Assembly: GCA_017629145.1 (NCBI GenBank)
Contig: JAGBXR010000027.1
Span: 1-32,994, forward strand
Reading direction: 5' to 3'
Source: Alistipes sp.
GTDB lineage: Bacteria; Bacteroidota; Bacteroidia; Bacteroidales; Rikenellaceae
Length of the DNA stretch: 32,994 bases
The position numbers and the translations under genes were made by a program. Position 1 is the stretch's first letter. Every line of letters begins with the position of its first letter. The notes under the pieces are model-generated. The model did no database searches, was not told the origin of the DNA, and saw only the letters and a list, made by a program, of their open reading frames with translations. This document shows positions 905 to 23,998 of this stretch, piece by piece.

Positions 905-1031
905 AATTTTTCGATAGAAGCCGTGAGATGTGGCACTGACACGAAAAAGCCACCGATGGGTAGTACTTGATGTACGTCCCATTGGTGGCGTTGACTGAAG
1001 TGTCGCAGATGACTACTTATCTCGAAAAATT
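905..1031 (+). repeat. Palindromic hairpin element, copy A (variant terminal stem)
   Basis: The ends are AATTTTTCGA (905-914) and TCGAAAAATT (1022-1031), a perfect 10-bp terminal stem whose sequence differs from the AATTTGTTGT/ACAACAAATT ends of the other copies. Inside are GGCACT opposite AGTGTC (partly decayed), GCCACC/GGTGGC, a G.T wobble, ATGGG/CCCAT, and GTAC/GTAC closing the loop TTGAT. The P2 region on the 3' side has diverged compared with the sister copy at 13758. Because the outer stem differs but still pairs, this copy is the clearest case of compensatory change in the outer stem. Confidence 0.85.
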
Positions 1032-1033
1032 GA

Positions 1034-1162
1034 AATTTGTTGTCAGAAGGCTGTAGATGCTGCACCGATAAAGAAGTTGCCCCAGATGGGACATACTTGA
1101 CGTATTTCCCATTTGGGGCAATGATTGAGGTGCGGCAGATATCTGCCTTATGACTACAAATT
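1034..1162 (+). repeat. Palindromic hairpin element, copy B
   Basis: This copy follows copy A in tandem after two bases. The ends are AATTTGTTGT (1034-1043) and ACTACAAATT (1153-1162), the latter with one change from ACAACAAATT. Internal pairs are AAGGC/GCCTT, TGCTGCACC/GGTGCGGCA (with one T.G wobble), TTGCCCCA/TGGGGCAA, the G.T wobble, ATGGGA/TCCCAT, and ATAC/GTAT around the loop TTGAC. The right terminus runs into tkt: the transketolase stop codon (1154-1156) lies inside the terminal repeat. Confidence 0.88.
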
Positions 1163-3181
1163 AAGGAGAGCCTTAACCTCCTCTGCTACACACTTGCCGT
1201 TGTAACCAAACTTCTCGTCGAGCACCTTGAAAGGAGCTGAATAACCGAAGTGGTCGAAGCCGTGGATGTAGCCATTCTCACCAACCAAACCTGCGAGGTT
1301 GAGTGAAAGACCTGATGTCATACCATAGCGTGGCAAGTTGCCGAGAACCGCCTCCTGGTACTCCTTAGGCTGATCACGGAAGAGACCCTCACTTGGGATA
1401 GATACCACGCGAGTAGCGATACCCTCAGCAGCGAGAAGCTCTGCACCCTCAACAAGAGTAGATACCTCCGAACCTGTTGCGATGAGCGTAGCGCGAGCAT
1501 CCGCAGAGTCCAAAACAACATAACCGCCCTTCTCGGCCTTCTTCGCCTCCTCCTGACGCGATACACCAGAGAGTGCTGGCAACGACTTGATATTCTGACG
1601 AGAGAGTACCAAAGCTACAGGACGCTTCTCCTCCAACGCCATCTTCCAAGCTACCACTGTCTCCTCGCTATCAGCTGGGCGAAGTACGAGCATTGAGCGC
1701 TCGCCAGAGTGGTTGCGCACGTGCTCCATAAGACGAATCTGAATCTCGTGCTCTACAGGCTCGTGAGTAGGACCATCCTCACCTACGCGGAATGAGTCGT
1801 GTGTCCAGATGTAGATAACGTGCTGCTCCATAAGTGCAGAGAGACGAACAGCTGGCTTCATATAGTCAGAGAATACGAAGAATGTACCGCACGCTGGAAT
1901 GATACCGCCGTGAAGTGCCATACCGTTCATTACGCAAGCCATAGTGAGCTCGGCAACACCTGCCTGGAAGAAGTTACCAGAGAAGTCGCCCTTGGTGAAC
2001 GCCTTGGTCTTCTTGAGGAAGCCATCGGTCTTATCAGAATTCGAGAGGTCAGCAGATGCAACAACCATATTCTCAACCTTCTCTGCGAAGATGCCGAGCA
2101 TAGATGCAGATGCTGCACGTGTTGCCTGATCAGGCTTAATCTCGATTGAAGAGTAGTCGATCTCTGGGAGCTTACCAGAGTAGAAGAGATCCATCTTCTC
2201 GGCAAGAGCTGGGTTAGCCTTACGCCACTCGTCCTCCGTAGCCTTCATCTCGGCAGCCCACTTGCGCAACTCCTCGCGGCGCTGTGCGTAGATCTCCTTT
2301 GACTCCTCGAATACTGCAAATGGCTCCTCTGGGTTACCACCAAGGTTGGTGATTGTGGCCGCGATGTCGGCACCAGCAGCTGTGAGTGGCTGACCGTGTG
2401 TTGACACCTGGTTCTCGAAGCTTGTACCATCAGCCTTACGTGCACCGTAACCCATAATTGTCTTACCGATGATGAGTGTAGGACGCTCTGTCTCGGCATT
2501 AGCAGCCTTGAGGGCAGCACGAATCTCGTCGATAGACTGACCATTAACTGTGATTACATTCCAGTTCCAAGCGCGATACTTCATCTCGATATCCTCGGTA
2601 TCAACCTCGTCGCACTTTGTAGAGAGCTGGATGTTATTTGAGTCGTAGTACATAATGAGGTTAGACAGGCCGAGGTGACCAGCAATGCGACCAACACCCT
2701 GTGAGATCTCCTCCTGAACAGCACCGTCAGAGATGAATGCATAGGTCTTGTGTGCCATCCACTCACCGAAGCGAGCCACCATAAAGCGCTCTGCAATAGC
2801 AGCACCGAGAGCCATAGCGTGACCCTGACCGAGAGGACCAGATGTATTCTCCACACCGCGAAGTACGTCAACCTCTGGGTGACCAGGAGTTACACTACCC
2901 CACTGACGCAACGACTGCAAATCCTCAGTCGTATAGTTACCAGCCAATGAGAGCACAGCGTAGAGCATAGGTGACATATGTCCTGGGTCGAGGAACATAC
3001 GGTCGCGGTGTGGGTACGCCATATTCTCTGGGTCGTAGCGAAGGAACTCTGTGTAGAGCACATTGATAAAGTCGGCACCACCCATAGCACCTCCAGGGTG
3101 ACCAGACTTTGCCTTCTCGACCATTGAAGCAGCCAGGATACGAATATTATCGGCTGCACGCTGAAGTTTGTTATTCTCCAT
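1154..3181 (-). CDS. tkt: Transketolase
   Basis: The 675-residue product is a thiamine-diphosphate enzyme that moves two-carbon ketol units between sugar phosphates in the non-oxidative pentose phosphate pathway. Family landmarks in order are SGHPGG (about 26-31), DPGHMSP (about 65), SGPLGQGHAMALG (about 112), the cofactor motif as ISDGAVQE...DSNN (about 150-182), SSFENQVSTHGQPL, and the C-terminal domain with HDSFRVGEDGPTHEP and LRPAD. The usual GDG of the cofactor motif reads SDG, which as I recall is normal for Bacteroidetes transketolases. The length is full. The last codons (Leu-TAG) come from the terminal repeat of the hairpin at 1034-1162. The ATG follows a TAnnTTTG promoter about 85 bases upstream, and pgk is divergent. 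Confidence 0.97.
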   Translation of the reverse strand: MENNKLQRAADNIRILAASMVEKAKSGHPGGAMGGADFINVLYTEFLRYDPENMAYPHRDRMFLDPGHMSPMLYAVLSLAGNYTTEDLQSLRQWGSVTPGHPEVDVLRGVENTSGPLGQGHAMALGAAIAERFMVARFGEWMAHKTYAFISDGAVQEEISQGVGRIAGHLGLSNLIMYYDSNNIQLSTKCDEVDTEDIEMKYRAWNWNVITVNGQSIDEIRAALKAANAETERPTLIIGKTIMGYGARKADGTSFENQVSTHGQPLTAAGADIAATITNLGGNPEEPFAVFEESKEIYAQRREELRKWAAEMKATEDEWRKANPALAEKMDLFYSGKLPEIDYSSIEIKPDQATRAASASMLGIFAEKVENMVVASADLSNSDKTDGFLKKTKAFTKGDFSGNFFQAGVAELTMACVMNGMALHGGIIPACGTFFVFSDYMKPAVRLSALMEQHVIYIWTHDSFRVGEDGPTHEPVEHEIQIRLMEHVRNHSGERSMLVLRPADSEETVVAWKMALEEKRPVALVLSRQNIKSLPALSGVSRQEEAKKAEKGGYVVLDSADARATLIATGSEVSTLVEGAELLAAEGIATRVVSIPSEGLFRDQPKEYQEAVLGNLPRYGMTSGLSLNLAGLVGENGYIHGFDHFGYSAPFKVLDEKFGYNGKCVAEEVKALLNL

Positions 3182-3264
3182 AACCTTTGTTAAATTAATA
3201 TTTTGTTTATGTTGTTGTTACATATTCACCGGGGACTACAGTATATGTTTCCCCATACATCTTA

Positions 3265-3285
3265 CAAAGGTACAAAAAGTTTCAA
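3265..3285 (-). promoter_or_regulatory. Probable tkt promoter
   Basis: The minus strand carries TACCTTTG (3265-3272), matching TAnnTTTG, with a TTG-containing GTTTCAA complement at 3279-3285 only a few bases upstream. A -33 element at standard spacing is not clear. The predicted leader is about 75 nt. The 350-base tkt-pgk gap (3182-3531) otherwise holds the pgk promoter and leader. Confidence 0.5.
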
Positions 3286-3397
3286 TATGATGTACCACAA
3301 ATTGCACTTTTCGGCACATTTTTCCTCTCCTTTACCAAAAGGTCGAGTGGCAAGGCTAAAAGATAGTGGTAATAATTATAATATATAGGTATAAGTA

Positions 3398-3428
3398 GCT
3401 ATTTTTTAAGATAAATTTCCTAACTTTG
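3398..3428 (+). promoter_or_regulatory. Probable pgk promoter
   Basis: TAACTTTG at 3421-3428 matches the Bacteroidetes -7 box TAnnTTTG. The -33 region (about 3398-3403) is AT-rich but has no clear TTTG. Transcription would start about 3433-3436, just before the nested hairpin of the leader. Confidence 0.55.
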
Positions 3429-3438
3429 CATTGATATT

Positions 3439-3487
3439 GCGACAATGCGGACCTATGCGAACTTCGGCGTTCGAGGTGCAGCGTCGC
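3439..3487 (+). promoter_or_regulatory. Strong nested hairpin at the 5' end of the pgk leader
   Basis: The stems nest perfectly: GCGAC/GTCGC (3439-3443 with 3483-3487), TGC/GCA, ACCT/AGGT, and CGAAC/GTTCG around the loop TTCGGC. Small internal loops aa/gc, gg and atg separate them. It would sit within a few bases of the predicted 5' end of the pgk mRNA and ends about 44 bases before the ATG. A 5'-end stabiliser or a protein or metabolite-responsive leader are both possible; nothing matches a riboswitch I know. Confidence 0.7.
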
Positions 3488-3531
3488 GACACACGCTGAA
3501 AATCTATTCATAAACTAAAATATCAAAAGCT

Positions 3532-4794
3532 ATGTTTGCAATTGACAACTACAATTTCGCTGGCAAGCGTGCCATCATCCGCGTTGACTTCAACGTGCCT
3601 CTCAATGGCGAGGGTCAGGTAACAGACGACACACGTATCCGCGCTGCTATCCCTACAATCCAGAAGGTATTGGCAGGTGGCGGCTCTGTAATTCTTATGT
3701 CGCACCTTGGTCGTCCAAAGAAGAACCCAGATCCAAAGTACTCTTTGGAGCAGATCATCTACGCTATCGAGGCTCGTCTCGGAGTGAAGGTTCAGTTCGC
3801 TGGCGACTGTATGGGTGAGAAGGCTGCAGAGATGGCAGCAAACCTCAAGCCAGGTGAGGTGATGCTCCTCGAGAACTTGCGCTTCTATGCCGAGGAGGAG
3901 GGTAAGCCACGCGGCTTGGCAGAGGATGCAACCGACGAGGAGAAGAGCGCAGCAAAGAAGGCTGTGAAGGAGTCACAGAAGGAGTTCGTGAAGAAGCTCG
4001 CTTCGTATGCTGACTGCTACATCAACGATGCATTCGGTACAGCACACCGCGCACACGCCTCTACAGCACTCATCGCCGACTACTTCCCACAGGACAAGAT
4101 GTTCGGCTACGTTATGGAGAACGAGCTCAAGGCTATCGACGGCGTTATGGAGAACCCAGAGCGTCCGTTCTGTGCTATCATCGGCGGCTCAAAGGTATCT
4201 ACAAAGATCACTATCATCGAGAAGCTTATGGAGAAGGTTGACTCTATCATCATCGGTGGCGGTATGACCTACACCTTCGCTGGCGCAGAGGGCGGCAAGG
4301 AGGGTAAGTCTATCTGCGAGCCAGATATGTTCCCAGTAGCTCTTGAGATCTTGAAGAAGGCCGAGGAGAAGGGTATCCAGATTCTCCGCTCTCCAGATGC
4401 ACTCATCTGCGACGACTTCTCGGAGAACGCAAATACACAGGAGGCTCCTGCAAACAACATTCCTGACGAGTGGGAGGGTGTCGACATCGCAACTGGCGGT
4501 AAGGCTAAGTTCCGCGAGCATATCCTCGGCTGCAAGACTATCCTCTGGAACGGTCCTGTAGGCGTATTCGAGATCAACAAGTTCTCGACAGGTTCACGCG
4601 CTGTAGCAGAGGCTATCGCCGAGGCTACAGAGAAGAACGGTGCATACTCACTCATCGGCGGTGGTGACTCGGTAGCTTGTGTAAACAAGTTCGGTCTCGC
4701 AGACAAGGTGTCGTACGTATCGACTGGTGGTGGTGCACTGCTCGAGTATATGGAGGGCAAGGAGCTCCCAGGCGTAGCAGCTATCCGCAAGTAA
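3532..4794 (+). CDS. pgk: Phosphoglycerate kinase
   Basis: The 420-residue product is the glycolytic enzyme that makes ATP from 1,3-bisphosphoglycerate and ADP (reversible), in the cytoplasm. Signature stretches are [11 protein letters not shown] (about 15-25), SHLGRPK (about 62), the substrate-binding [22 protein letters not shown] (hinge side of the nucleotide domain), [11 protein letters not shown], and the nucleotide-binding [13 protein letters not shown] near the C terminus. The length is normal. The start is fixed by [15 protein letters not shown], the typical N terminus. It is divergent from tkt, putting two central sugar-phosphate genes back to back. The next gene, the M13 peptidase, starts 105 bases downstream with no clear promoter, so read-through is likely. 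Confidence 0.98.
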
Positions 4795-4810
4795 TAGATA
4801 GGTAGTATAG

Positions 4811-4846
4811 AGGGCTGATTAGATACGCATAATCTAAATCAGCCCT
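4811..4846 (+). other. Stem-loop between pgk and the M13 peptidase gene
   Basis: AGGGCTGATTAGAT (4811-4824) pairs with ATCTAAATCAGCCCT (4832-4846, one bulged A) around a 7-base loop. No run of T follows on either strand, so it is not a standard intrinsic terminator. It may process or partly attenuate a pgk-peptidase transcript. Confidence 0.6.
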
Positions 4847-4899
4847 TGCTATGGCCATCGATTGAAACAATACAACTCAAACAGAATAGACAAACAAAG

Positions 4900-6927
4900 A
4901 TGAAAAAGTTCTCATTTATCCTTGCAACAGCACTCCTTATGACAGCGTGCGCAACGACAAATGGCGGCAAGCAGGCCGAGGTGCCAGCTATCGACATCAA
5001 CAACCTCGATGAGTCGATCGTCCGCAACGATGACTTCTACCAGTGGGCAACAGGCGGCTGGCAGAAGAACAACCCTCTCAAGCCAGAGTTCTCTCGTTAC
5101 GGCTCATTCGACGTATTGCGCGAGAACAACGAGGTGCGTATCAACGAGCTCTTCCAGGCTATGACCGAGTCGAAGGCCGAGGCTGGTAGCATCGAGCAGA
5201 AGATCTCGGATCTCTATAAGATGGGTCTCGACGAGGAGCGTCTTAACCGCGAGGGCGCAGAGCCTATCCGCGAGGCGTTGAACAAGATTTATGCTATGAA
5301 CAGCCGTGAGGAGATCTTGGCCGCTTTGCCAGAGCTCCACACCGATGGCATAGGCGCATTCTTCTACGCATACCCTGCAGCTGACCTTGCAGATAGCAAT
5401 ATGACAATTCTCTACCTCGAGCAGGGCGGCCTTGCGATGGGCAACCGCGACTACTACACCGAGGAGAACAACGCTGACAAGAAGGCCGAGTACCGCAACT
5501 ACCTCGCAAAGATCTACGCTTTGGCAGGTCTCGAGGGCGATGCAGAGGCATTCGTAGCTGATGTGTTGAAGGTTGAGGATGCTATCGCTGCAAAGCACTG
5601 GACAAATGTTGAGTGCCGCGACATCCAGCGTGGTTACAACCCATACACTATGGAGCAGGTACGCAAGGAGTTCTCAACAGTTGACTGGGATGCTTACTTC
5701 AAGGCTATGGGTGTTGAGAACGTTGAGAAGCTCGTTGTGAGCCAGCCATCATCGTTCAAGAACATTATGGAGGTTATCGCAACTATGCCTGTCGAGGCGT
5801 TGCGCAACTACGTTGCTGCACACTACATCGATGCAGCATCTGGCTACCTCAGCGAGGAGTTCGCACTCGCATCGTTCGAGTTCTTCGGCCGTACAATGTC
5901 GGGTACACAGGAGATTCGTCCTCGCTGGAAGCGCGCTATGGGTGTGCCTAACAACATCCTTTCAGACGCTGTAGGTCAGATCTACGTTGCAAAATACTTC
6001 CCAGAGAGCGAGAAGGCTCGCGTAGAGCTTATGGTATCTAACATCCAGAAGGCATTCTCAAAGCATATCGACAACCTCGACTGGATGGGTGAGGAGACCA
6101 AGGCAAAGGCACAGGAGAAGCTCGCAGCATTCACCGTAAAGATCGGCTATCCTAACAAGTGGGAGGACTACTCTACACTCAACGTAGACCCAGCAAAGAG
6201 CTATTGGGCAAATGTCGTAGAGGCTAACCGCTGGTACAGCGCAGACTCTATGTCAGAGGTAGGCAAGCCCGTAGATCGCGAGAAGTGGATGATGCCTCCA
6301 CAGATGGTTAACGCATACTATATGCCTACAACCAACGAGATCTGCTTCCCAGCAGCTATCCTCCAGCCTCCATTCTACAACCCTGCAGCTGACGATGCAG
6401 TGAACTATGGCGCTATCGGCGTGGTTATCGCTCACGAGATGACACACGGCTTCGACGACCAGGGCTCGCAGTTCGACAAGGTAGGCAATATGAACGACTG
6501 GTGGACTGCCGAGGATCGTGCAGCATTCGAGAAGAAGACTGACGTATTGGTTGAGCAGTTCAACGCTATCGAGATTCTCCCAGGCTTGTTCGCTGATGGT
6601 AAGTTCTCATTGGGCGAGAACATCGCTGACCAGGGTGGTTTGCGCCTTGCATACACAGCGTTGGTTGACTCTTGGAACGGTGAGCACCCAGCAGACATCG
6701 ATGGCTTCACAGCCGAGCAGCGTTACTACATCGGTTACGCAACACTCTGGGCACAGAACATCACCGATCAGGAGAAGGAGCGCCTCACAAAGGTTGACGT
6801 ACACTCATTGGGCCGCAACCGCGTGAACGCTACATTGCGTAACATTCAGAGCTTCTACGATGCCTTCGGCATCACCGAGGAGGATGCTATGTATATGCCT
6901 GTTGAGGAGCGCGTGATTATCTGGTAA
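4900..6927 (+). CDS. pepO: M13 family zinc metallopeptidase, lipoprotein (PepO/neprilysin-like)
   Basis: The start at 4900 gives MKKFSFILATALLMTAC, a lipoprotein signal with lipobox LMTAC. An in-frame ATG at 4846 would put extra residues before the signal and is rejected. The mature enzyme is predicted to be a lipid-anchored endopeptidase outside the inner membrane. It has the M13 N-terminal domain (NNLDESIVRNDDFYQWATGGW), NAYY with FPAAILQPPFY, the zinc site HEMTH (H512 and H516, with catalytic E513), the third ligand in GENIADQGG (E573), and a C terminus ending VIIW where many family members have CxxW. At 676 residues the length is normal. It is probably co-transcribed with pgk, and a strong terminator follows. 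Confidence 0.95.
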   Translation: MKKFSFILATALLMTACATTNGGKQAEVPAIDINNLDESIVRNDDFYQWATGGWQKNNPLKPEFSRYGSFDVLRENNEVRINELFQAMTESKAEAGSIEQKISDLYKMGLDEERLNREGAEPIREALNKIYAMNSREEILAALPELHTDGIGAFFYAYPAADLADSNMTILYLEQGGLAMGNRDYYTEENNADKKAEYRNYLAKIYALAGLEGDAEAFVADVLKVEDAIAAKHWTNVECRDIQRGYNPYTMEQVRKEFSTVDWDAYFKAMGVENVEKLVVSQPSSFKNIMEVIATMPVEALRNYVAAHYIDAASGYLSEEFALASFEFFGRTMSGTQEIRPRWKRAMGVPNNILSDAVGQIYVAKYFPESEKARVELMVSNIQKAFSKHIDNLDWMGEETKAKAQEKLAAFTVKIGYPNKWEDYSTLNVDPAKSYWANVVEANRWYSADSMSEVGKPVDREKWMMPPQMVNAYYMPTTNEICFPAAILQPPFYNPAADDAVNYGAIGVVIAHEMTHGFDDQGSQFDKVGNMNDWWTAEDRAAFEKKTDVLVEQFNAIEILPGLFADGKFSLGENIADQGGLRLAYTALVDSWNGEHPADIDGFTAEQRYYIGYATLWAQNITDQEKERLTKVDVHSLGRNRVNATLRNIQSFYDAFGITEEDAMYMPVEERVIIW

Positions 6928-6968
6928 TCGCAGATAGATAGCGAGCCGAAGTCGGCTCAACAAACGAT

Positions 6969-7003
6969 AAAGGTCTGTGCAGGCGCACAGACCTTTATTG
7001 TTA
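6969..7003 (+). terminator. Intrinsic terminator after the M13 peptidase gene
   Basis: A 12-bp perfect stem AAAGGTCTGTGC/GCACAGACCTTT (6969-6980 with 6985-6996) with loop AGGC is followed by ATTGTTAT. A smaller GAGCC/GGCTC hairpin precedes it. Confidence 0.8.
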
Positions 7004-7012
7004 TGAGACATC

Positions 7013-7275
7013 TGGGGAGTGTAAGGAGTGTAAGGAGATTAAGGAGTTTAGGGAAGTTAGGGAGGGCTTGCGCGCCTTTAGATAGAGCATAAGGAATTTA
7101 GGGAGTTTAGGGAATTTAGGGAGAGCTTGCGCGCCTTTAGAACGCACTCCACTCCTTAAACTCCTTAAACTCCTTAAATTCCTTAAATTCCTTAAACTCC
7201 CCCCAACCCAAAAACCGCCCTAACCTCCCTAATCTCCTTAACCTCCCTAAATTCCCTAATCTCCCCACAACCCAC
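7013..7275. repeat. 9-nt purine array with inverted pyrimidine counterpart (array copy 2, no hairpin element)
   Basis: GGAGTGTAA, GGAGATTAA, GGAGTTTAG and related 9-nt units are interrupted by GCTTGCGCGCC (about 7065 and 7124). GAACGCACTCCA follows, then CTCCTTAAA/TTCCTTAAA units and a C-rich stretch. It fills the gap between two converging genes. Unlike the other four arrays, it is not followed by the AATTTGTTGT hairpin; a conventional terminator occupies that place. Confidence 0.85.
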
Positions 7276-7311
7276 AAAAAAAAAAGCGTGTCCAACATAA
7301 GTTGAACACGC
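7276..7311 (-). terminator. Intrinsic terminator of the exbB-exbD operon
   Basis: On the minus strand an 11-bp stem (7301-7311 with 7286-7296, one G.T pair) with loop TTAT is followed by ten T (7285-7276). This is a textbook rho-independent terminator 22 bases after the last exbD stop. Confidence 0.92.
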
Positions 7312-7333
7312 CTTTGCGATATTATGCAATAGG

Positions 7334-7792
7334 TTAGTTATTACCTGTTGCACGCGCTGCGTATGAGATGTTAAGCGCCTCTGCCTTACGAAGCTCCTGC
7401 TTAACAGCAGTAAGCTTACCTACAGTTGCACCCTCATCAACGCGAAGGTTAACAACGATATCCTTAGGACCAACACCCTTAGTAACGGTAGTAGCCGAGA
7501 TAAAGTCGCGGATGTCAGACACCTCGCGTGTCTGGTCGTTGAGCTGAATCTTCAAAGCATCCTCACCTACCTTAGCACCGAGGGGCTTACCCATCCAAAT
7601 ATTTACAAGATTCTTCTTGTCGAGCTCGGTGATCTCATAAGCCTCAGGCATCTGCACCTGCACCAATGGATCTACCTCACGCATCGTAGTTGCTGCCATA
7701 AAGAAGAACAGAAGCATAAACACGATGTCGGGAAGTGACGAAGTCGACATTGCGGGCACCTCTTTCTTGCCCTTTTTTGCCATTACTGCCAT
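7334..7792 (-). CDS. exbD: ExbD/TolR family protein (second copy)
   Basis: The 152-residue protein has a short basic N terminus, one transmembrane segment (PDIVFMLLFFFMAATTM, about 21-37) carrying the membrane aspartate (D22) on which proton use in ExbD/TolR depends, and a periplasmic domain. ExbB-ExbD complexes harvest the proton motive force to drive TonB at the outer membrane. The start is two bases after the previous exbD stop, showing translational coupling; a second ATG three codons in is also possible. It is the last gene of the four-gene operon and is followed by a strong terminator. Two dissimilar ExbD proteins in one operon are common in Bacteroidetes. Confidence 0.92.
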   Translation of the reverse strand: MAVMAKKGKKEVPAMSTSSLPDIVFMLLFFFMAATTMREVDPLVQVQMPEAYEITELDKKNLVNIWMGKPLGAKVGEDALKIQLNDQTREVSDIRDFISATTVTKGVGPKDIVVNLRVDEGATVGKLTAVKQELRKAEALNISYAARATGNN

Positions 7793-7794
7793 AA

Positions 7795-8391: not shown

Positions 8392-8394
8392 AAA

Positions 8395-9333: not shown

Positions 9334-9366
9334 AATTCGATTTATCCTTAAAATATTGGAGCTTAA

Positions 9367-13486: not shown

Positions 13487-13524
13487 ATACTTTTTATCGA
13501 AAGAGCATATAAGATGGGGAAAAT

Positions 13525-13757
13525 GGGGAGGGCTAAAGGGAATTAAGGAATTTAGGGAATTTAAGGAGAGGCTTGCGCGCCTGAGGATGGGGGCTAAGGG
13601 AGATTAAGGAGTTTAGGGAATTTAAGGAAAGGCTTGCGCGCCTTTAGAACGCACTCAGGCTCCTTAACACCCCTATATTCATTAATTTCCTTAAACTCAT
13701 TAAATTCCCTAATCTCCCTAAATTCCCTAATTCACCACCTACTTACCTGCACACCCT
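13525..13757. repeat. 9-nt purine array with inverted pyrimidine counterpart (array copy 3)
   Basis: Purine units (GGAATTTAG, GGAGTTTAG) are interrupted twice by GCTTGCGCGCC (about 13571 and 13632). Then come TTTAGAACGCACTCAGG, the fixed block CTCCTTAACACCCC with ATATTCATTAATTTCC, pyrimidine units, and the linker TACCTGCACACCC. It fills the gap between the dprA start and the fusA2 stop. Confidence 0.85.
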
Positions 13758-13884
13758 AATTTGTTGTCAGAAGCCGTGAGATGTGGCACTGACACGAAAA
13801 AGCCACCGATGGGTAGTACTTGTGGTACGTCCCATTGGTGGCTTTGACTGAAGTGCCGCAGATTGCGGCTTATCACAACAAATT
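13758..13884 (+). repeat. Palindromic hairpin element, copy C
   Basis: Perfect terminal repeats AATTTGTTGT (13758-13767) and ACAACAAATT (13875-13884) bracket the usual CAGA/TATC internal loop. Stems AGCCG/CGGCT, GGCACT/AGTGCC and GCCACC/GGTGGC follow, then the G.T wobble, ATGGG/CCCAT, and GTAC/GTAC closing loop TTGTG. It is the best-paired copy. The stop codon of fusA2 (13883-13885) uses the last two bases of the right terminus. Confidence 0.92.
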
Positions 13885-16036
13885 ACTCTTCGTCAGTATC
13901 AGTGTAAGCCTTCAACAACTTATCCTGTACATCTGCTGGCACCTGCTCGTAGGTAGCAAACTGCATTGTGTAGGTTGCTGCACCTGAAGTGAGTGATGAC
14001 AAAGATGTAGAGTAGCGGTAGAGCTCTGCAAGAGGTACACGTGCGTTGAGACGGTCGAAGCCCTTATCTGACTCCATACCCATAATCATAGCACGACGGT
14101 TCTGCAAGTCACTCATCACAGCACCCATATACTCGCTTGGAGTGAGTACCTCGACGTTGTAGATAGGCTCCATAATCTTTGGACCTGCGTTGCGGAATGC
14201 CTCCTTGAAGGCGTTACGAGCTGCAAGCTTGAACGAGATCTCGTTAGAATCTACTGGGTGCATCTTACCATCGTAGATAACCACGCGGATGTCGCGAGCG
14301 TAAGAACCTGTAAGTGGACCCTCGTCCATCTTCTCCATAATACCCTTCAAGATAGCTGGCATAAAGCGAGCGTCGATAGCACCACCAACGATAGAGTTGT
14401 AGTACTGCAACTTACCGCCCCAAGGCAAGTCGTACTCCTCCTTACCCTTAACGTTCACGGTAATATCCTTGCCGTTAACCTTGTACTTTGTAGGCTCTGG
14501 CATATCCTCGTAGTAAGGCTCGATAACCATATGTACCTCACCAAACTGACCCGAACCACCAGACTGCTTCTTGTGGCGGTAGTCTGCCTGTGCTACCTTG
14601 GTGATAGTCTCACGATATGGGATCTTTGGTGCGAAGAACTCCATCTCCATCTTGTTCTCTGTCGAGAGACGATACTTCAAGATGTTGAGGTGGTGCTCAC
14701 CCTGACCCTGGATGATAGTCTGCTTAAGCTCCTTTGAGTACTCTACAAGGATTGTAGGATCCTCATACTTTGCGTCGTTGAGCAACTTGCCGAGCTTCTC
14801 CTCATCACTCTGCTCCTTTGCCTTAACCGCTGCACGGTAGCGAGGCTCTGGGAATACGATAGGCTCAACAGTTACTGGAGTAGCAGGAGCAGCCAAAGTA
14901 TCGTTTGTGCGTGTACCCTTAAGCTTCACAGTGCAACCGATGTCACCTGCTGAAAGCTCTGACACCTTGATACGGTTCTTACCAGCAACTGCGAAGAGCT
15001 GCGAGATCTTCTCCTTGTTGCCTGTACGTGAGTTCACGAGCTCCATACCCTCGGTGATCTTACCACGAACTACGCGGAAGTAGGTGATCTCACCGATATG
15101 CTGCTCGATCTGGCTCTTGAATACGAATACTGCTGTAGGCTCATCGGCATTTGCCAAAAGCTCCTCGCCCTCGGTAGAGAGGAATGCAGGTGCCTTCAAT
15201 GGGCCTGGAGCTACGTTGATGATGAACTCCATAAGACGCTTTGTACCGATATCGCGCTTACCTGATGCGCAGAAGATAGGCATAACATCGCGCTTCGACA
15301 CGCCGAGCTTCAAACCTGCACGGATATCATCCTGTGTGAGTGAACCCTTCTCGAAGTAGAGCTCCATAAGAGCGTCATCGTAAACTGCAGCTGCCTCGGC
15401 AAGCTCCTGGTTGAGAGCCTGTGCTGTCTCGAGCTCGCTCTCTGGAATTGGATGCTCCTCACGTGTACCGTTCTCGTCTACGAACTTGTACATCTTCATC
15501 ATCAATACGTCGATGAATGAGTCGAAGCCTGCACCCTGGTTTACAGGATACTGAACAATAACTGGCTTAACTGATGAGTTAGCGCGGATACCCTCGACTG
15601 TAGCCTCGAAGTTAGCCTTGTCGCCATCGAGCTGGTTAACCAAACCGATGAGTGGCTTATTGAGGATGCGTGCGTAGCGTGACTGAAGCTCTGAACCTAC
15701 CTCCCAACCATTCTGGGCGTTGAGCACCATAACACCAACGTCACCTACCTTGAAAGCCGAGAAGAGCGAACCACAGAAGTCGTCCGAACCTGGGCAGTCG
15801 ATGATGTTGAGCTTACGGTCCATAAACTCTGTAAAGAGGGTTGTCGAATAAATCGAACGCTTATACTCGTGCTCGATATCGGTGTTATCCGATATAGTAT
15901 TGTTATTCTCGATACTACCCCTGCGGTCAATAACTTTACCCTCATAAGCCATTGCCTCTGCAAGGGTAGTTTTTCCAGTGCCGGGCGCACCAATAAGAAC
16001 GATGTTCTTAATCTCTTTTGCTGAATAGTTTTTCAT
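13883..16036 (-). CDS. fusA2: EF-G paralog of the Bacteroidetes EF-G2 type
   Basis: From the ATG at 16036 the product is 717 residues. The in-frame ATG at 16099 is rejected because it adds 21 residues with no family similarity. It has the EF-G plan: G domain, domain II (VFKSQIEQHIGEITYFRVVRG), domain III (ILVEYSKELKQTIIQGQGEHHL), domain IV (about 480-600) and domain V. The G domain is abnormal. The P-loop GAPGTGKTT (16-24) is intact, but switch I has RSIYS where RGITI is expected, G3 is DCPGS (80-84) instead of DTPGH so the catalytic His is Ser84, and G4 is NQLD (134-137) instead of NKxD. This matches, as I recall it, Bacteroides EF-G2 (fusA2), reported to support translation without GTPase activity. 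The canonical fusA is expected beyond rpsL. Confidence 0.88.
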   Translation of the reverse strand: MKNYSAKEIKNIVLIGAPGTGKTTLAEAMAYEGKVIDRRGSIENNNTISDNTDIEHEYKRSIYSTTLFTEFMDRKLNIIDCPGSDDFCGSLFSAFKVGDVGVMVLNAQNGWEVGSELQSRYARILNKPLIGLVNQLDGDKANFEATVEGIRANSSVKPVIVQYPVNQGAGFDSFIDVLMMKMYKFVDENGTREEHPIPESELETAQALNQELAEAAAVYDDALMELYFEKGSLTQDDIRAGLKLGVSKRDVMPIFCASGKRDIGTKRLMEFIINVAPGPLKAPAFLSTEGEELLANADEPTAVFVFKSQIEQHIGEITYFRVVRGKITEGMELVNSRTGNKEKISQLFAVAGKNRIKVSELSAGDIGCTVKLKGTRTNDTLAAPATPVTVEPIVFPEPRYRAAVKAKEQSDEEKLGKLLNDAKYEDPTILVEYSKELKQTIIQGQGEHHLNILKYRLSTENKMEMEFFAPKIPYRETITKVAQADYRHKKQSGGSGQFGEVHMVIEPYYEDMPEPTKYKVNGKDITVNVKGKEEYDLPWGGKLQYYNSIVGGAIDARFMPAILKGIMEKMDEGPLTGSYARDIRVVIYDGKMHPVDSNEISFKLAARNAFKEAFRNAGPKIMEPIYNVEVLTPSEYMGAVMSDLQNRRAMIMGMESDKGFDRLNARVPLAELYRYSTSLSSLTSGAATYTMQFATYEQVPADVQDKLLKAYTDTDEE

Positions 16037-16133
16037 AAGTATATTAGTTTTTAGGTTTTTTTTCGTCACTCTTCTGCCAATCGGGACTCTTGCATACAAG
16101 CCATCGTCTCGGCTTATTGAGCTTTGCGGATTA

Positions 16134-16387: not shown

Positions 16388-16418
16388 TTGGACTATTTCT
16401 CAAAAATAGCTACCTTTG
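16388..16418 (+). promoter_or_regulatory. Probable promoter of the outer-membrane barrel gene
   Basis: TTG (16388-16390), a 20-base spacer and TACCTTTG (16411-16418, a TAnnTTTG match) lie 23 bases before the ATG at 16442. Because the in-frame ATG at 16388 coincides with the -33 region, the shorter start is preferred. Confidence 0.6.
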
Positions 16419-16441
16419 TTACACCAATAAACGAGGTCGTT

Positions 16442-18904: not shown

Positions 18905-18907
18905 CAA

Positions 18908-19160
18908 CGTGAGGATGGGGGCTAAAGGAATTTAGGGAATTTAAGGAGTTTAGAGAAGGCTTGCGCGCCTTTAGATGAGGGCTAAGGGAATTTAAGGAGT
19001 TTAAGGAATTTAAGGAGAAGCTTGCGCGCATTTAGAACGCACTCTGCTCCTTAACACCCCTATATTCATTAATTTCCTTAAACTCCTTAAATTCCCTAGT
19101 CTCTAATCTCCCTAATCTCCCTAATTTCCCTAATTCACTACCTACCCACCTGCACACCCT
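18908..19160. repeat. 9-nt purine array with inverted pyrimidine counterpart (array copy 4)
   Basis: GGATGGGGGCTAAAGG begins the array. Units GGAATTTAG, GGAGTTTAG and GGAATTTAA are interrupted by GCTTGCGCGCC (about 18959) and GCTTGCGCGCA (about 19020). Then come TTTAGAACGCACTCTG, the fixed CTCCTTAACACCCC block, pyrimidine units, and the linker CCCACCTGCACACCC. It occupies the gap between two converging genes, starting within about 8 bases of the barrel gene stop. Confidence 0.85.
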
Positions 19161-19288
19161 AATTTGTTGTCAGAAGGCTGTAGATGCTGCACCGATAAAG
19201 AAGTTGCCCCAGATGGGACATACTTAGCGTATTTCCCATTTGGGGCAACGATTGAGGTGCGGCAGATATCTACCTTATGACAACAAAT
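19161..19288 (+). repeat. Palindromic hairpin element, copy D
   Basis: The ends are AATTTGTTGT (19161-19170) and ACAACAAAT (19280-19288). The stems are AAGG/CCTT, TGCTGCACC/GGTGCGGCA and TTGCCCCA/TGGGGCAA, then the G.T wobble, ATGGGA/TCCCAT, and ATAC/GTAT with loop TTAGC. It is nearly identical to copy B (1034-1162). The right terminus is coding: it supplies the last residues and the stop codon of rlmD. Confidence 0.9.
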
Positions 19289-20687
19289 GCAGCTTCACAA
19301 CATTCTCAACGTGGTGGGTATGTGGGAACATATCGACAGGCTGCACCGCGAGAATCTCGTACATATCGCTAAGCAAGGCAAGATCGCGCGCCTGGGTCGA
19401 AGGGTTGCAGCTTACGTATACCATACGCTCGGGCGCTGCACGCTTGATAACCTCAAGCACCTTCTCGTCGACACCTGCACGTGGTGGATCGAGGATGATG
19501 ACATCGGGACGACCATTGCGCGATACGAACTCGTCGCTGAGAACATCCTTCATATCGCCAGCGTAGAACGTAGTATTCTCGATGCCGTTGATCATAGAGT
19601 TAATCTTTGCATCCTCGATAGCCTCGGGAACATACTCCACACCGACAACCTTCGCTGCGCGACGTGCACAGAAATTGGCAATAGTACCCGTACCTGTGTA
19701 GAGATCGTAGAGGACATCGGTAGGCTTAAGGTCGGCAAATTCGCGCGTAACCTTATATAGCTCATAGGCCTGCTCCGAGTTGGTCTGGTAGAACGACTTT
19801 GGACCGACCTTGAACTGCAAGCCCTCCATCTGCTCGATGATGTGATCCTTGCCTGCATAGCAGATAGGCTCACGGTCGCCGAGCGAGTCGTTCCACTTCT
19901 CGTTGATCATATAGATGAGCGAAGTAATCTCGGGGAACTGTACCTTGAGATGCTCCATAAGGGCGTTTATGCGCTCCTTGTCGTTCTCGTTGAATACCAC
20001 AATGACCATAATCTCACCCGTCGAAGCTGTACGCACAACCATCGTACGCATAAGACCCTCGTGGGCGCGTGCATTGTGGAACGAGTAGCCGTTATTGATA
20101 CAGAACTGCTTGATGCTTAAGCGTATGCGGTTGTTTATATCGTTTTGCAAGTGACACTTCTCTATGTCGAGCACCTTGTCGAAGCAGCCAGGTATGTGGA
20201 AGCCTACAGCTGGCTTTGGCTCGATGTCGCCACCTTCGGCAATCTCCTCGTAGGTAAGCCAGCGACGGTCAGCAAACGTAAACTCGAGCTTGTTGCGATA
20301 CTCCTCCGTGCGTGCCGAGCCGAGGCAGGGGCGCACCTCAGGAATGGTGAGGTGTCCTATGCGCACAAGCTGATCCTCGACCTGCTTGGTCTTCTGACGG
20401 AGCTGCTCCTCGTAGGGCAGATTCTGCCACTTACAGCCACCACAGATGCCAAAGTGCTGACAGAATGGCTCGGTACGCAACGGCGACTTCTCGACAAAGC
20501 GCACGACAGTGCCCTCCATATAGCGGCGGTGGTGCTTGCGAATCTGCACGTCGACAACATCGCCAGGAACGGTCATAGGCACGAAAACCACCTGGTTGTC
20601 GACCTTACCCATAGCCTTACCCTCGGCAGCCAAAGTTGTGATATGTAGTCCCTCGATAAGAGGATAATCCTTTCTTCTCTTTCCCAT
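19275..20687 (-). CDS. rlmD: 23S rRNA (uracil-C5)-methyltransferase, RlmD/RumA family
   Basis: The 470-residue protein has an N-terminal TRAM RNA-binding domain (about 8-66), a probable 4Fe-4S cluster set C76, C82, C85 and C178 (FCQHFGICGGCKW and DIEKCHLQ), and a SAM-dependent methyltransferase domain with DLYTGTGTIANFCA, DPPRAGVD, catalytic cysteine C427 in VSCNPSTQARDLALL and catalytic-base glutamate E461 in HHVENVV. It adds a 5-methyl group to uridine in 23S rRNA; the exact position (1939 or 747) cannot be told from sequence alone. The last residues (LLS) and the TAA come from the hairpin at 19161-19288. It starts 11 bases after trmB in the ricT-gldH-trmB-rlmD operon. Confidence 0.93.
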   Translation of the reverse strand: MGKRRKDYPLIEGLHITTLAAEGKAMGKVDNQVVFVPMTVPGDVVDVQIRKHHRRYMEGTVVRFVEKSPLRTEPFCQHFGICGGCKWQNLPYEEQLRQKTKQVEDQLVRIGHLTIPEVRPCLGSARTEEYRNKLEFTFADRRWLTYEEIAEGGDIEPKPAVGFHIPGCFDKVLDIEKCHLQNDINNRIRLSIKQFCINNGYSFHNARAHEGLMRTMVVRTASTGEIMVIVVFNENDKERINALMEHLKVQFPEITSLIYMINEKWNDSLGDREPICYAGKDHIIEQMEGLQFKVGPKSFYQTNSEQAYELYKVTREFADLKPTDVLYDLYTGTGTIANFCARRAAKVVGVEYVPEAIEDAKINSMINGIENTTFYAGDMKDVLSDEFVSRNGRPDVIILDPPRAGVDEKVLEVIKRAAPERMVYVSCNPSTQARDLALLSDMYEILAVQPVDMFPHTHHVENVVKLHLLS

Positions 20688-20698
20688 ATGCGAAAATA

Positions 20699-21451
20699 TT
20701 AAAACGCTTTTGTTCTATTGCTCTCGGCATCCTTCTCCAATGCCTCATCGCCCTCCCAGTCGAAATGCTCGAAATTCTCGCACTCGCCAAGACGGAAACG
20801 TGTGTAGGTGATAGGCAGACCCATAGCCACAAACTTTGTCTCGTAGGCGGTCTTTACCGAGAGTACCTCATCGGCATAGCCCGAGCCGTAGATGTCGTCG
20901 TTCTGCACCTCGGCCTCGAGACCCAAACGCTCGATGACTGCTGCTGTATAGGCGTAGAGGTGCTTCGAGTCGGTCTTGAGGTTGATGACACCCTCCTTAC
21001 CGATCATACGCTTGTACTCGGCCAAGAATAGTGGCGATGTGAGACGCTTCTTTGCACGACGTGTCTTGAGCTGTGGGTCGGGGAACGTAATCCATATCTC
21101 GGCAATCTCGCCCTCGGCAAAGAACGAGCGGATGAACTCGATGCGTGTGCGCACGAAGCCTACATTCTTCATCTCGCGCTCGGTTGCAGTCTTGGCACCA
21201 CGCCACATACGCGCACCTTTGATGTCGATGCCGATGTAGTTCTTGTCGGGGTTGCGCTCCGCCAATGCTACGGTATACTCACCACGACCACATCCCAACT
21301 CCAGGATTATGGGGTTGTCGTTGTGGAAGAACTCCTTGTGCCACTTACCCTTGAGCGAGTGGTCTTTATGGAATATCTCCTCGAATTCGGGTTGTACCAT
21401 ACAGCCGAAAGTCAAGTTCTCGGCAAACTTACGCAATTTATCCTTTCCCAT
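20699..21451 (-). CDS. trmB: tRNA (guanine-N7)-methyltransferase
   Basis: The 250-residue class I SAM-dependent methyltransferase makes m7G46 in the tRNA variable loop. Visible landmarks are the SAM-binding ILELGCGRGEYTVALA (about 48-63), YIGIDIKGARMWRGA (about 72-86), the family hallmark ITFPDPQLKTRRAKKRLTSP (about 119-138), and INLKTDSKHLY (about 155). The C-terminal extension (about 215-250, acidic and Lys-containing) is longer than in Escherichia coli TrmB. It begins 7 bases after the gldH-like stop and is followed by rlmD, so two RNA methyltransferases share a transcript. Confidence 0.96.
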   Translation of the reverse strand: MGKDKLRKFAENLTFGCMVQPEFEEIFHKDHSLKGKWHKEFFHNDNPIILELGCGRGEYTVALAERNPDKNYIGIDIKGARMWRGAKTATEREMKNVGFVRTRIEFIRSFFAEGEIAEIWITFPDPQLKTRRAKKRLTSPLFLAEYKRMIGKEGVINLKTDSKHLYAYTAAVIERLGLEAEVQNDDIYGSGYADEVLSVKTAYETKFVAMGLPITYTRFRLGECENFEHFDWEGDEALEKDAESNRTKAF

Positions 21452-21458
21452 ATTTTAG

Positions 21459-21917
21459 TTATTCTTCATCACTTCGGTTAGTTACAAGCAGCCCCACAGA
21501 ACTTACACCCTCGACCCTTGCCTGGGGCGTGAGACGAAAGCGATACTCACCCTTACGCTGTAGCACCACGCCACAGCGGTAGATGAAACTCTGCTCGGCA
21601 GGACGCATATCGCCAAGTCGCGGTATGCGCAACGTCATATCCTCGGAGAGCACCAGCGAGTCGGGCGAGATGGTGAGGATGTTGAGCGCAACGCTGTCGG
21701 CAACCTCGCCTCGGTCGTAGCGCAACACCACAGCAATCTCGCGCACCGAGAGCGAGTCGTCGTTCTGGAAAACGAACTCCTCGACACCCTCCCAGCCACG
21801 TGTCGACTGGTCGTGAACCTCGACTGCGCGCTGCTCACCACGACAGGCAATACCCATCGCAGCTACAACCACAACCGCCATCAGGCGCAGCATAAAGCCC
21901 TCTTTTAAGCTCCTCAT
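21459..21917 (-). CDS. gldH: GldH-like lipoprotein
   Basis: The start at 21917, 4 bases after the ricT stop, gives 152 residues, MRSLKEGFMLRLMAVVVVAAMGIAC. A start at 21893 (MLRLM) is also possible. The signal ends in a weak lipobox (GIAC), suggesting export and lipidation. The mature part shows the GldH pattern: a residual RYDRGEVADSVALNI strand, SPDSL, IPRLGDM, and the C-terminal block GEYRFRLTPQARVEGVSSVGLLV. GldH is required for gliding in Flavobacterium, but homologs occur in many non-gliding Bacteroidales beside ricT, as here. Its role in such organisms is unknown to me. Confidence 0.72.
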   Translation of the reverse strand: MRSLKEGFMLRLMAVVVVAAMGIACRGEQRAVEVHDQSTRGWEGVEEFVFQNDDSLSVREIAVVLRYDRGEVADSVALNILTISPDSLVLSEDMTLRIPRLGDMRPAEQSFIYRCGVVLQRKGEYRFRLTPQARVEGVSSVGLLVTNRSDEE

Positions 21918-21921
21918 CCGA

Positions 21922-23487
21922 CTACTCCTCCGTCTTGGGTGCACGATTCTCGTCACGACCGCCACGCTCCGAATTGTTGCGACGTGGACGATTGTTGCGA
22001 CGCTGACGATGCTCGTTGTTACGCGCTCCGCCATTGCCGTTTGCGCCATTGTTATTGTTTGCGCCACCCTCTACCGTATGCTCCGCAGGACGGTTGCTCT
22101 CGCGTGGCTCGCGGTTTTCTTTTGGCTCACGTGGCTCGCGATTCTCGCGTGGCTCTCTTGGCTCGCGGTTTTCTCTTGGCTCGCGATTGTCGCGACGGCG
22201 GTCGTTGCGCTGACGGCGCTGGCCATTACGCTCACCACGCTCCGCGCGCTCACCCTTATCTCCCTTCTCGGCACGTGGTTCACCACCCTTTGCAGCCTCC
22301 TCATTTACCTCGGCTACTGGCACTGCTGCCGCCTGCTCGGCACGTTGCTCACGCTCCTTACCACCGCGACGCTTGTTGCGCTTATTGCGCTTGCCCTTAT
22401 TGTCGAAACGTGTGATGCTATCCTCCTCCTGACGGTATGTAGGCTCGGCATTGCCCTCCTCGGCTACGCTGCCCAATAGTGTCTCGGCACGCTCACCAGC
22501 GCGATTCAAAGCGATAATCTCCTTGACGCGCCAGATAGGCAATGTTGTGAGGTTGGCCAGTGTACCCTTGCTTGTCGAGAATGACATAGTCTGCGCCAAT
22601 GGGTCGACCTTAACGAGGAAGTACTCACCATCGAGGGTCTGCAATGGCTCACGCAGACGTGGTATTGTGCGACGAGCATCGGCATATACGTCGTACTCGT
22701 ACATCAGACAGCACTTAAGCTTCGAGCACTGACCTGCCAGCTTCTGTGGGTTGAGCGATATCTCCTGCATACGCGCAGCGTTGGTTGTAACGCTCGAGAA
22801 GCTCGACATCCACGATGCACAGCATAACTCGCGACCACAAGCACCGATACCACCAATGCGGCCAGCCTCCTGACGTGCACCAATCTGCTTCATCTCGATA
22901 CGGATGCGGAAGCGGTCGGCGAAGACCTTGATAAGCTCGCGGAAGTCGACACGCTCGTCGGCAATGTAGTAGAAGATAGCTTTGATCTTGTCGCCCTGAT
23001 ACTCCACATCGCCAATCTTCATATTCAGACCCATATCTGCGGCAATCTGTCGCGATGCGATCATCGTCTCGTGCTCGAGGGCTATCGCCTCCTGCCACTT
23101 CTCGATATCGTATGGACGCGCCTTGCGGTAGATCTTCTTGAACTCGCCGTTGTGGGGGTTGAAGCCCACGCGACGCATCTGCTTGGCTACCATATCGCCC
23201 GTAAGCGAGATGATGCCTATGTCGTGACCTGGCGACGCCTCGACAGCTACGATATCTCCGCGCTTAAGCTCCAAACCATTGACATTCTGATAGTATGAAC
23301 GGCGCGTATTCTTGAATCGCACCTCGAATATGTCGGTAGGTATGTTGTCGGGATACTCCTCGAGCCAGTTTGTCTCGTGCAGCTTGTAGCAACCCTCGAG
23401 CGCGATGGCATCGAGCTCCTCGCCACAGTCGCAGAAGCAACAGCCACGGCCTATCTCCGACTTATGTTTTTTATTGCAACAACTCAT
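21922..23487 (-). CDS. ricT: PSP1-domain protein (RicT/YaaT-like) with long disordered basic tail
   Basis: The 521-residue protein has three parts. A Cys-rich N terminus, CCNKKHKSEIGRGCCFCDCG (about 3-22), could bind metal or Fe-S. The PSP1 core (about 50-330) has FEVRFKNTRRSYYQN, KRGDIVAVEASPGHDIG, GARQEAGRIGGIGACGRELC and KLAGQCSKLKCCLMYE; the Cys motifs match RicT/YaaT proteins that, with partners, carry Fe-S clusters in Bacillus. The C-terminal 150 residues are low complexity: Lys/Arg/Glu, then repeated REPRENREP units, then Asn/Gly and Arg-rich segments, probably disordered and RNA-binding (inference). It is the first gene of the ricT-gldH-trmB-rlmD operon. Confidence 0.9.
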   Translation of the reverse strand: MSCCNKKHKSEIGRGCCFCDCGEELDAIALEGCYKLHETNWLEEYPDNIPTDIFEVRFKNTRRSYYQNVNGLELKRGDIVAVEASPGHDIGIISLTGDMVAKQMRRVGFNPHNGEFKKIYRKARPYDIEKWQEAIALEHETMIASRQIAADMGLNMKIGDVEYQGDKIKAIFYYIADERVDFRELIKVFADRFRIRIEMKQIGARQEAGRIGGIGACGRELCCASWMSSFSSVTTNAARMQEISLNPQKLAGQCSKLKCCLMYEYDVYADARRTIPRLREPLQTLDGEYFLVKVDPLAQTMSFSTSKGTLANLTTLPIWRVKEIIALNRAGERAETLLGSVAEEGNAEPTYRQEEDSITRFDNKGKRNKRNKRRGGKEREQRAEQAAAVPVAEVNEEAAKGGEPRAEKGDKGERAERGERNGQRRQRNDRRRDNREPRENREPREPRENREPREPKENREPRESNRPAEHTVEGGANNNNGANGNGGARNNEHRQRRNNRPRRNNSERGGRDENRAPKTEE

Positions 23488-23527
23488 ATCTAATGTTACT
23501 CTTTACTTACAAGTATAATTTATCGCG

Positions 23528-23535
23528 TAAAGGTA
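23528..23535 (-). promoter_or_regulatory. Possible ricT operon promoter (-7 box)
   Basis: TACCTTTA on the minus strand, one base from TAnnTTTG, lies 41 bases before the ricT ATG in AT-rich sequence. The -33 side is T-rich without a clean TTTG at standard spacing. Confidence 0.4.
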
Positions 23536-23609
23536 AGCAAAAAATATGAAAAAAGAAAATTAATCGCCACGAAGGAGAAGAAAGGGGCTGAAGAGCGGTG
23601 CTGTATGGC

Positions 23610-23871
23610 TGCGCGCCTGCGGATGGGGGCTAAGGGAGTTTAGGGAGTTTAGGGAATTTAGGGAGGGCTTGCGCGCCCTTAGAACGCACTCTGCTCCTGA
23701 GGATAGGACTAAAGGAATTTAGGGAATTTAAGGAGTTTAGGGAGAGCTTGCGCGCCTTTGGAACGCACTCAGGCTCCTTAACACCCCTATATTCATTAAT
23801 TTCCTTAATCTCCTTAAATTCCTTAATCTCCCTAATTTCCTTAATTCACCACCTACCCACCTGCACACCCT
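23610..23871. repeat. 9-nt purine array with inverted pyrimidine counterpart (array copy 5)
   Basis: The array has three rounds of purine units with GCGCGCC punctuations (about 23610, 23668 and 23750). The middle round is followed by a partial GAACGCACTCTGCTCCTGA, suggesting an internal duplication. Then come GGAACGCACTCAGG, the fixed CTCCTTAACACCCC block, pyrimidine units, and the linker CCCACCTGCACACCC leading to the hairpin. It is upstream of ricT. Confidence 0.85.
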
Positions 23872-23998
23872 AATTTGTTGTCAGAGTGGCGCTAATTTAC
23901 CACCGATAAAGAGAAAGAGCGGATGGGACATACTTGAGGTATTTCCCATTCGCTCTTTGGATTGAGGTGGCGAAGGAGCGCCACTATCACAACAAATT
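23872..23998 (+). repeat. Palindromic hairpin element, copy E
   Basis: Terminal repeats AATTTGTTGT (23872-23881) and ACAACAAATT (23989-23998) bracket stems that differ from every other copy yet pair perfectly: GTGGCGCT/AGCGCCAC, CCACC/GGTGG and AAAGAGCG/CGCTCTTT. Then come the G.T wobble, ATGGGA/TCCCAT, and ATAC/GTAT with loop TTGAG. The internal loop GATAAAG/GATTGA is like copies B and D. It is strong evidence that pairing rather than sequence is maintained. Confidence 0.92.

Follow-up and report, generated by a model that had tools for sequence, protein, structure and literature searches.

A dispersed family of palindromic hairpins at gene ends in Alistipes and its possible coupling to replication

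The 32,994-nt contig JAGBXR010000027.1 of the Alistipes sp. assembly GCA_017629145.1, the DNA studied here and hereafter called the window, carries six palindromic hairpins that belong to a large and real family of elements of about 127 bp in Bacteroidales. On balance, we lean toward the view that these dispersed elements replace the intrinsic terminator after the stop codons of genes that run with the replication fork, and that they would be maintained at the level of DNA in a replication-coupled manner. Dispersed bacterial palindromes are usually read as relics of repetitive extragenic palindromic (REP) elements or as stabilizers of mRNA. The present family fails tests for REP, Rfam and retroelement membership, has no 5- to 8-nt target duplication, and keeps to one strand per contig in 91–97% of cases in four genomes. 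It would offer a natural set of terminators that one class of genes often carries and the other seldom does, and, since mismatches in its stems reveal the folding strand, it makes the spread or survival of palindromes via single-stranded DNA (ssDNA) at the fork testable in a common gut genus.

Extent of the family and its position at stop codons

Complete copies form an unbranched hairpin in which a terminal stem, P1, is followed by P2, P3 and an inner stem, P4, with small internal loops between them. The window forms contig C22 of the draft genome G000 (1.62 Mb, 76% complete). Two covariance models were used, R1 built from the five complete hairpins of the window and R2 from 91 diverse copies; candidate matches overlapped by a better one on the opposite strand were removed, and all copy numbers per genome are lower bounds. 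Searching the host genome and other Bacteroidales in this way, as the original prediction had proposed, uncovered a large dispersed family. R1 found at least about 108 places in G000, among them partial copies and a few weak matches with E values of up to 1. In a first sample R1 matched 9 of 18 further genus genomes, and 12 genomes from other genera gave no match; in a larger sample with stricter filters, matches were present in 87 of 151 genus genomes, the window's own counted. R2, run under strict filters over 295 genomes of the order, matched that genome and two from other families, G358 and G292. The four copies inspected in these two have similar ends and internal loops, and the stop-codon position is the same in both loci checked; G358 has 15 matches; four of its contigs have at least two, and all 10 of these follow one strand per contig. 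Among other genera of the window's own family, G263 gave a single weak match (E 0.0097) and G363 none. Relatives retrieved by a scan with the window's elongation factor G (EF-G) were Alistipes, other Rikenellaceae or Bacteroidales metagenome-assembled genomes (MAGs), many of them from ruminant gut. Several contigs of G000 (e.g., C27, C30, C36, C37 and C49) begin or stop in or near a hairpin; the repeat therefore probably breaks assemblies, leaving copy numbers underestimated.

The hairpins had not been recognized as a known riboswitch family, and Rfam has no entry for them: the window contains no Rfam match at the gathering score, and at a relaxed threshold 10 loci yielded six matches only, all far below gathering scores. 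For copy 3 of the window, the sole copy tried, a search of phage and plasmid records that allowed distant DNA similarity gave no match, and a hairpin loop pattern was found in no viral contigs. Among the open-access titles and abstract openings listed for Alistipes repeats and RNAs, candidate structured RNAs, REP, RAYT (REP-associated tyrosine transposase), dispersed terminators and group II intron targeting, none describes the family.

The hairpins adjoin gene ends in one orientation. By model strand we mean the strand on which the covariance models were built, which is antisense to the adjoining gene. When 116 hairpins on 40 stretches (≤20 kb) from the genomes G003 and G017 were compared with open reading frames (ORFs), 113 proved to have a right-hand neighbor, and in 108 of these it reads toward the hairpin. 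The stop codon lies −25 to +13 nt from the hairpin end in 88 of these 108, at 117–140 nt, one tandem unit away, in 13, and farther in 7. Left neighbors are mixed, 46 being transcribed toward the hairpin and 62 away from it (n = 108). Of 80 EF-G loci, 18 have a hairpin no more than 17 nt from the stop codon, 17 in the same orientation and one, a weak match (L216), on the opposite strand. Among the hairpin-less relatives displayed, many show a GC-rich stem with a T-tract after the EF-G stop (by eye), and at L155 a P4-like stem and eight T residues alone remain there (by eye).

Read in the direction of the gene, P4 leads into a U-rich tract (≥5 U in 10 nt) in 187 of 224 hairpins, compared with 91 of 224 in the reverse direction; the total is 224 since the core was not located in 38 of 262 hairpins. 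The mean number of U residues in the 10 nt past P4 is 5.54 in the gene direction and 4.32 in the opposite one. With a GC-rich stem, a U-rich tract and a location at gene ends, the hairpins have the features of intrinsic (Rho-independent) terminators, and, judged from sequence, P4 and its U-rich tract probably serve as the predicted terminator of the adjoining gene. A stricter generic terminator scan of window positions 12–20 kb returned 7 sites against 5.4 in shuffles, which is no excess; two of the sites are hairpins, on the minus strand. The hairpins differ from ordinary intrinsic terminators in having three more, outer stems, in starting at the stop codon itself and in forming a dispersed homologous family, as well as in the strand that carries wobble pairs and in being rare where C-rich-strand genes end. 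Repeats that supply terminator hairpins are known from paired DNA uptake sequences (PMC2267715; also PMC1852404). In other species of the Alistipes group, a different palindromic repeat directly follows the EF-G stop (L184, L195 and L207, by eye), with ends like AAAAATT...AATTTTT and a loop near CATAG..CTATG.

Strand polarity, folding strand and covariation

Strand uniformity was counted on contigs with at least two hairpins. The majority strand per contig accounts for 95 of 101 hairpins in G000, 93 of 96 in G003, 86 of 92 in G017 and 85 of 93 in G052 (98% complete), whereas the maxima reached in 20,000 random draws were 83, 74, 72 and 70, respectively. Collapsing tandem copies leaves 48 of 54 (G000), 90 of 93 (G003) and 73 of 79 (G017). 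To relate this polarity to genes, gene ends with at least 100 nt after them were sorted into two strand classes; because the 20-kb stretches were picked mainly around known matches, the hairpin shares that follow are inflated in both classes. When classes were set by the pooled GC skew of the contig, a hairpin was found at 71 of 147 gene ends of the G-rich strand and at 8 of 90 others (p 6e-11); when set by the hairpin majority, the counts were 74 of 152 and 5 of 85, and in a third genome, G052, 18 of 66 and 4 of 65. Hairpins are rare at gene ends of the other class, so the polarity does not come merely from hairpins following genes. Among the 116 hairpins, 102 adjoin in the sense expected from the pooled skew. 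Stretches with a plus-strand majority have negative skew in 16 of 17 cases (9 of 11 in the G052 set), and those with a minus-strand majority have positive skew in 16 of 23 (7 of 9). The genes and skew of the stretch L285 are reversed locally, yet all three of its hairpins keep to the strand of the contig. Because leading strands are, as a general rule, G-rich, the G-rich strand is presumably the leading strand and the hairpin-bearing genes are presumably leading-strand genes. The dnaA gene was found in three genomes.

Mismatches within the stems indicate which strand folds. They were scored symmetrically for both strands of 262 distinct hairpins, with no model used in the count. On the model strand, G.T mismatches outnumber A.C mismatches 1077 to 176, and G.A outnumber T.C 1210 to 257; at one position of P4, 62 of 91 sequences have a G.U pair. 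The model strand is also the more stable one in 247 of 262 hairpins with RNA parameters and in 250 with DNA parameters, and four distant copies from G358 and G292 favor it as well (−48 to −71 versus −33 to −50 kcal/mol). As a control, 58 gene-end stems outside the family had 36 G.U against 7 A.C on the gene's own strand and 3 G.A against 4 C.T. This pattern is the expectation for ordinary transcribed stems, and the hairpin family is the reverse of it. The hairpins were found by models of one orientation, yet strand calls differ by tens of bits. A mutational cause of the G.T excess was considered and rejected: C-to-T deamination is expected on the sense strand, which is exposed in leading-strand genes, and would yield the opposite excess.

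The idea that pairing is selected or regenerated is borne out by covariation across 91 representatives with <80% identity. These were aligned with MAFFT, which does not fit the structure, after 3 misoriented sequences of 94 had been removed, and one of the 91 supplied the structure. Changes occur on both sides of 42 of 48 pairs; 786 cells show a double change, compared with 275.5 in shuffles, and 85.0% of cells pair, compared with 66.1%. Sliding the partners by 1–3 columns lowers pairing to 43–46%. None of 500 shuffles attains any of the observed covariation measures; as the shuffles leave relatedness in, this amounts to strong covariation and is not equivalent to R-scape significance.

The compensatory diversity that had been ascribed to the stems is sound insofar as pairing is kept, whereas part of it looks like the swapping of entire concentric modules among copies. 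In G000, the 70 copies of 83 that have a recognizable core fall into 38 distinct P1-P2-P4 combinations, point variants included, and modules are reused in differing combinations: all four combinations of two variants occur in five cases for P1 with P4, in two for P1 with P2 and in none for P2 with P4. One copy inside a tandem array (L018, 1638–1765) has GGCTCG as its left P4 arm and GGTGGC as its right, so that P4 cannot pair; its sequence marks it as a likely recombination product with P4 arms from two types. Stepwise compensation and concentric-module exchange may both occur. Just downstream of the EF-G hairpin, L140, L144 and L147 carry partial second copies, mostly of the 3′ half in the gene direction, as if from slippage or template switching.

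Possible origins and their rivals

The explanation toward which we lean has four steps, given in falling order of support. The G-rich strand would be the leading strand; P4 and its U-rich tract would end the gene's transcript; the full palindrome would be constrained as DNA, on a folded single strand complementary to the mRNA, which for a leading-strand gene would be the leading template and would share its sequence with the nascent lagging strand; and copies would spread and be rejuvenated through replication-coupled copying and gene conversion of concentric modules. The polarity would follow if copies arise only, or survive only, with the less stable hairpin on the lagging-strand template: they could (i) arise solely at genes whose sense strand serves as the lagging template, or (ii) be lost where their stabler strand lies on the lagging template. 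Constraint at the DNA level is invoked because the strand with the wobble signature is not the gene's transcript, and is favored further because so few left neighbors (46 of 108) would transcribe the model strand. Of the three options that the original prediction had left open (a structured RNA, a transposase-mobilized palindrome and a nucleoid or replication site), a replication-linked element of the third kind comes closest. A bolder version, to which we attach only about one chance in four of being right, is a self-spreading palindromic terminator that is copied at the fork via the folded single DNA strand complementary to the mRNA. If so, a co-directional gene would exchange its terminator for the element at each insertion, and transcription ends would be rewritten genus-wide, by a replication-coupled element that needs no Y1 transposase and no reverse transcriptase.

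The signature on the model strand could instead belong to RNA. Structured antisense RNAs, transcribed from a promoter to the left of the hairpin and either bound by protein or acting on the 3′ end of the neighboring mRNA, would account for the G.U and G.A pairs, for the G.U pair prevalent in P4 and for covariation of a kind typical of RNA. Since the left neighbor reads toward the hairpin in a minority of cases, most copies would need a promoter of their own; the words frequent in the left flank are not the same from genome to genome (GCACACCC in G000, CAGCGCAC in G017), although promoters were not sought systematically. Such RNAs would also leave the replication polarity unexplained, and no Rfam family matches, so we regard them as an improbable source of the pattern. 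A plain structured RNA is less favored because transcription of the neighboring gene does not yield the strand that bears the fold signature. Passive survival, in which terminators spread at random and slippage deletes the copies whose stabler strand lies on the lagging template, would need no machinery at all and seems to us slightly less probable than antisense RNA. It fits the greater stability of the model strand with DNA parameters as well, a strand that, as oriented, would not be the lagging template, and the existence of tandem and partial copies; it explains neither the conserved non-Watson-Crick pairs at fixed positions of the antisense strand nor the arrival at stop codons, and strong reversed copies are present on contig C10 of G052 at 250 and 300 kb (127.5 and 130.1 bits).

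We give far less credence to mobilization by known enzymes. Elements of the REP, BIME (bacterial interspersed mosaic element) and REPIN (REP doublet forming a hairpin) type, which are moved by RAYT (TnpA-REP) or another Y1 HUH transposase, likewise are numerous dispersed palindromes near or downstream of genes, and a minority of REPs in Escherichia coli lie at stop codons (446 of 4,072 within 15 nt, in the part of PMC12306157 available). Excerpts of PMC3733652 give REPs a length of 20–40 bp and one stem of 5–13 bp, and mention G.T pairing in the stems of GTAG REPs. The hairpins fail this size test, with four stems and mostly 125–131 bp. Of 301 hairpins, 2 have GTAG no more than 8 nt from the left foot and 5 from the right, and CGTC is that close in 3 and 3, so neither serves as a tag; moreover, the hairpins have a uniform strand per contig and a wobble signature on the antisense strand. 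A search for Y1_Tnp found none in 41 genus genomes, with a positive control in 5 of 14, which tells against a palindrome mobilized by Y1 or RAYT and makes this a very unlikely origin. Excerpts of PMC6006769 describe IS200/IS605 Y1 enzymes as acting on ssDNA of the lagging template, with replication-linked targeting, and those of PMC8914252 describe ssDNA and replication-linked targeting for group II introns. In our proposal the hairpins are similarly replication-linked, as these elements and the nonautonomous derivatives of IS200/IS605 are, but the strand with their fold signature would not be the lagging template. The reverse transcriptase domain RVT_1 showed no association with the hairpins among 30 genomes (present in 7 of the 18 genus genomes rich in hairpins and in 5 of the 10 that lack them).

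A classical miniature inverted-repeat transposable element (MITE), moved in trans by a DDE transposase, strikes us as equally far-fetched. The many copies and inverted ends (AATTTGTTGT/ACAACAAATT) recall one, whereas the palindrome extends over the entire length, its stems covary and it ends at stop codons. Flanking duplications, counted for the 296 hairpins with enough flank (301 for tags and words), are absent at 5–8 nt (0 of 296) and in slight excess at 3 nt (13 versus 6.8 expected) and 4 nt (5 versus 2.2). A GCAC-type word stands near the left end in 96 of 301. Integron attC sites share a conserved fold with variable sequence, a location near the stop codon and a folded single strand. Their core sites follow the order RYYYAAC...GTTRRRY, which was not seen by eye in the hairpin ends (integrase was not searched for), and the hairpins, unlike attC, adjoin housekeeping genes among others rather than cassettes. 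A gene end that recurs at L091, L084 and L257 was considered as that of a "master" gene and rejected, the ORF at L091 being ordinary-looking, with a GGGtGRT motif and nothing transposase-like by eye.

Several observations weigh against the replication-coupled terminator that we favor. The leading strand is deduced from a weak GC skew (mostly <0.07) that partly reflects gene content, in draft MAGs with no origin or terminus mapped. Fourteen of 116 hairpins run counter to the pooled skew of their own contig, the minus-majority stretches (16 of 23) follow the skew less closely, and C10 of G052 has 4 of 18 hairpins reversed. Along three contigs with strand switches, skew agrees loosely with the hairpins on C15 and C7 of G003 and does not on C8 of G017. 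The U-rich tract is also found in the reverse direction, the control of 58 stems is small, and antisense RNA from an unseen promoter could yield the same wobble signature. Neither a transposition event nor a target rule came to light, nor did an enzyme in searches that covered Y1 transposases and reverse transcriptases.

The hairpins of the window and neighboring repeats

All five complete copies that had been reported in the window are present, each folding as a single long hairpin (Table 1), except that copy 4, whose start was given correctly, ends one base later, at 19289 rather than 19288. The shared four-stem plan with stems that still pair applies generally, with the exception of P2 in copy 905, which is broken, and the variable stem sequences are real, although the five copies represent three subtypes, not five independent designs. 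Copies 1034 and 19161 are 96% identical, and copies 905 and 13758, left flanks included, 85%. Predicted RNA fold energies of the five on the model strand range from −55.6 to −73.7 kcal/mol, and all six hairpins of the window are on the plus strand. In place of a hairpin, an ordinary stem resembling a terminator follows the plus-strand gene that ends at 6927 (by eye).

Table 1. Hairpins of the window with adjoining genes and repeat arrays
Feature	Position	Strand	Remarks
Hairpin copy 1	905..1031	+	Terminal stem AATTTTTCGA/TCGAAAAATT; P2 broken; first of tandem pair
Hairpin copy 2	1034..1162	+	Right end overlaps end of transketolase gene 1154-3181 (-)
Hairpin copy 3	13758..13884	+	Best model match of the window
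Copy 3 stems	P1 13758-13767/13875-13884; P2 13771-13779/13863-13871; P3 13782-13790/13852-13860; P4 13799-13813/13831-13845	+	
T-tract after P4, read in EF-G gene direction	13797..13801	-	A-run on plus strand; flagged on minus strand by consensus terminator scan
EF-G gene	13883..16099	-	Stop codon overlaps right end of copy 3
Hairpin copy 4	19161..19289	+	Right end overlaps end of RNA methyltransferase gene 19275-20687 (-)
Hairpin copy 5	23872..23998	+	Next convincing ORF rightward (24243-25325, -) ends 245 nt off; no recognized stop codon adjoining
Sixth hairpin	32883..32994	+	Other loop subtype; truncated by window/contig end at model position 109 of 127
9-nt-unit arrays	600-904, 7009-7278, 13520-13757, 18905-19160, 23600-23871		Left of four hairpin sites; 7009-7278 without hairpin

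The window also contains a second repeat, arrays of 9-nt units (CTCCTTAAA / GGAATTTAAGGAG) that are inverted around GCTTGCGCGCC. Some other species have different short-unit arrays near hairpins or EF-G ends (by eye). A large ORF at 25488–29153 has internal repeats at 69-nt steps and is a candidate for a leucine-rich BspA-like surface protein. Finally, the gene for a PSP1-domain protein has repeats at 9-nt steps within its coding sequence, at 22099–22195.

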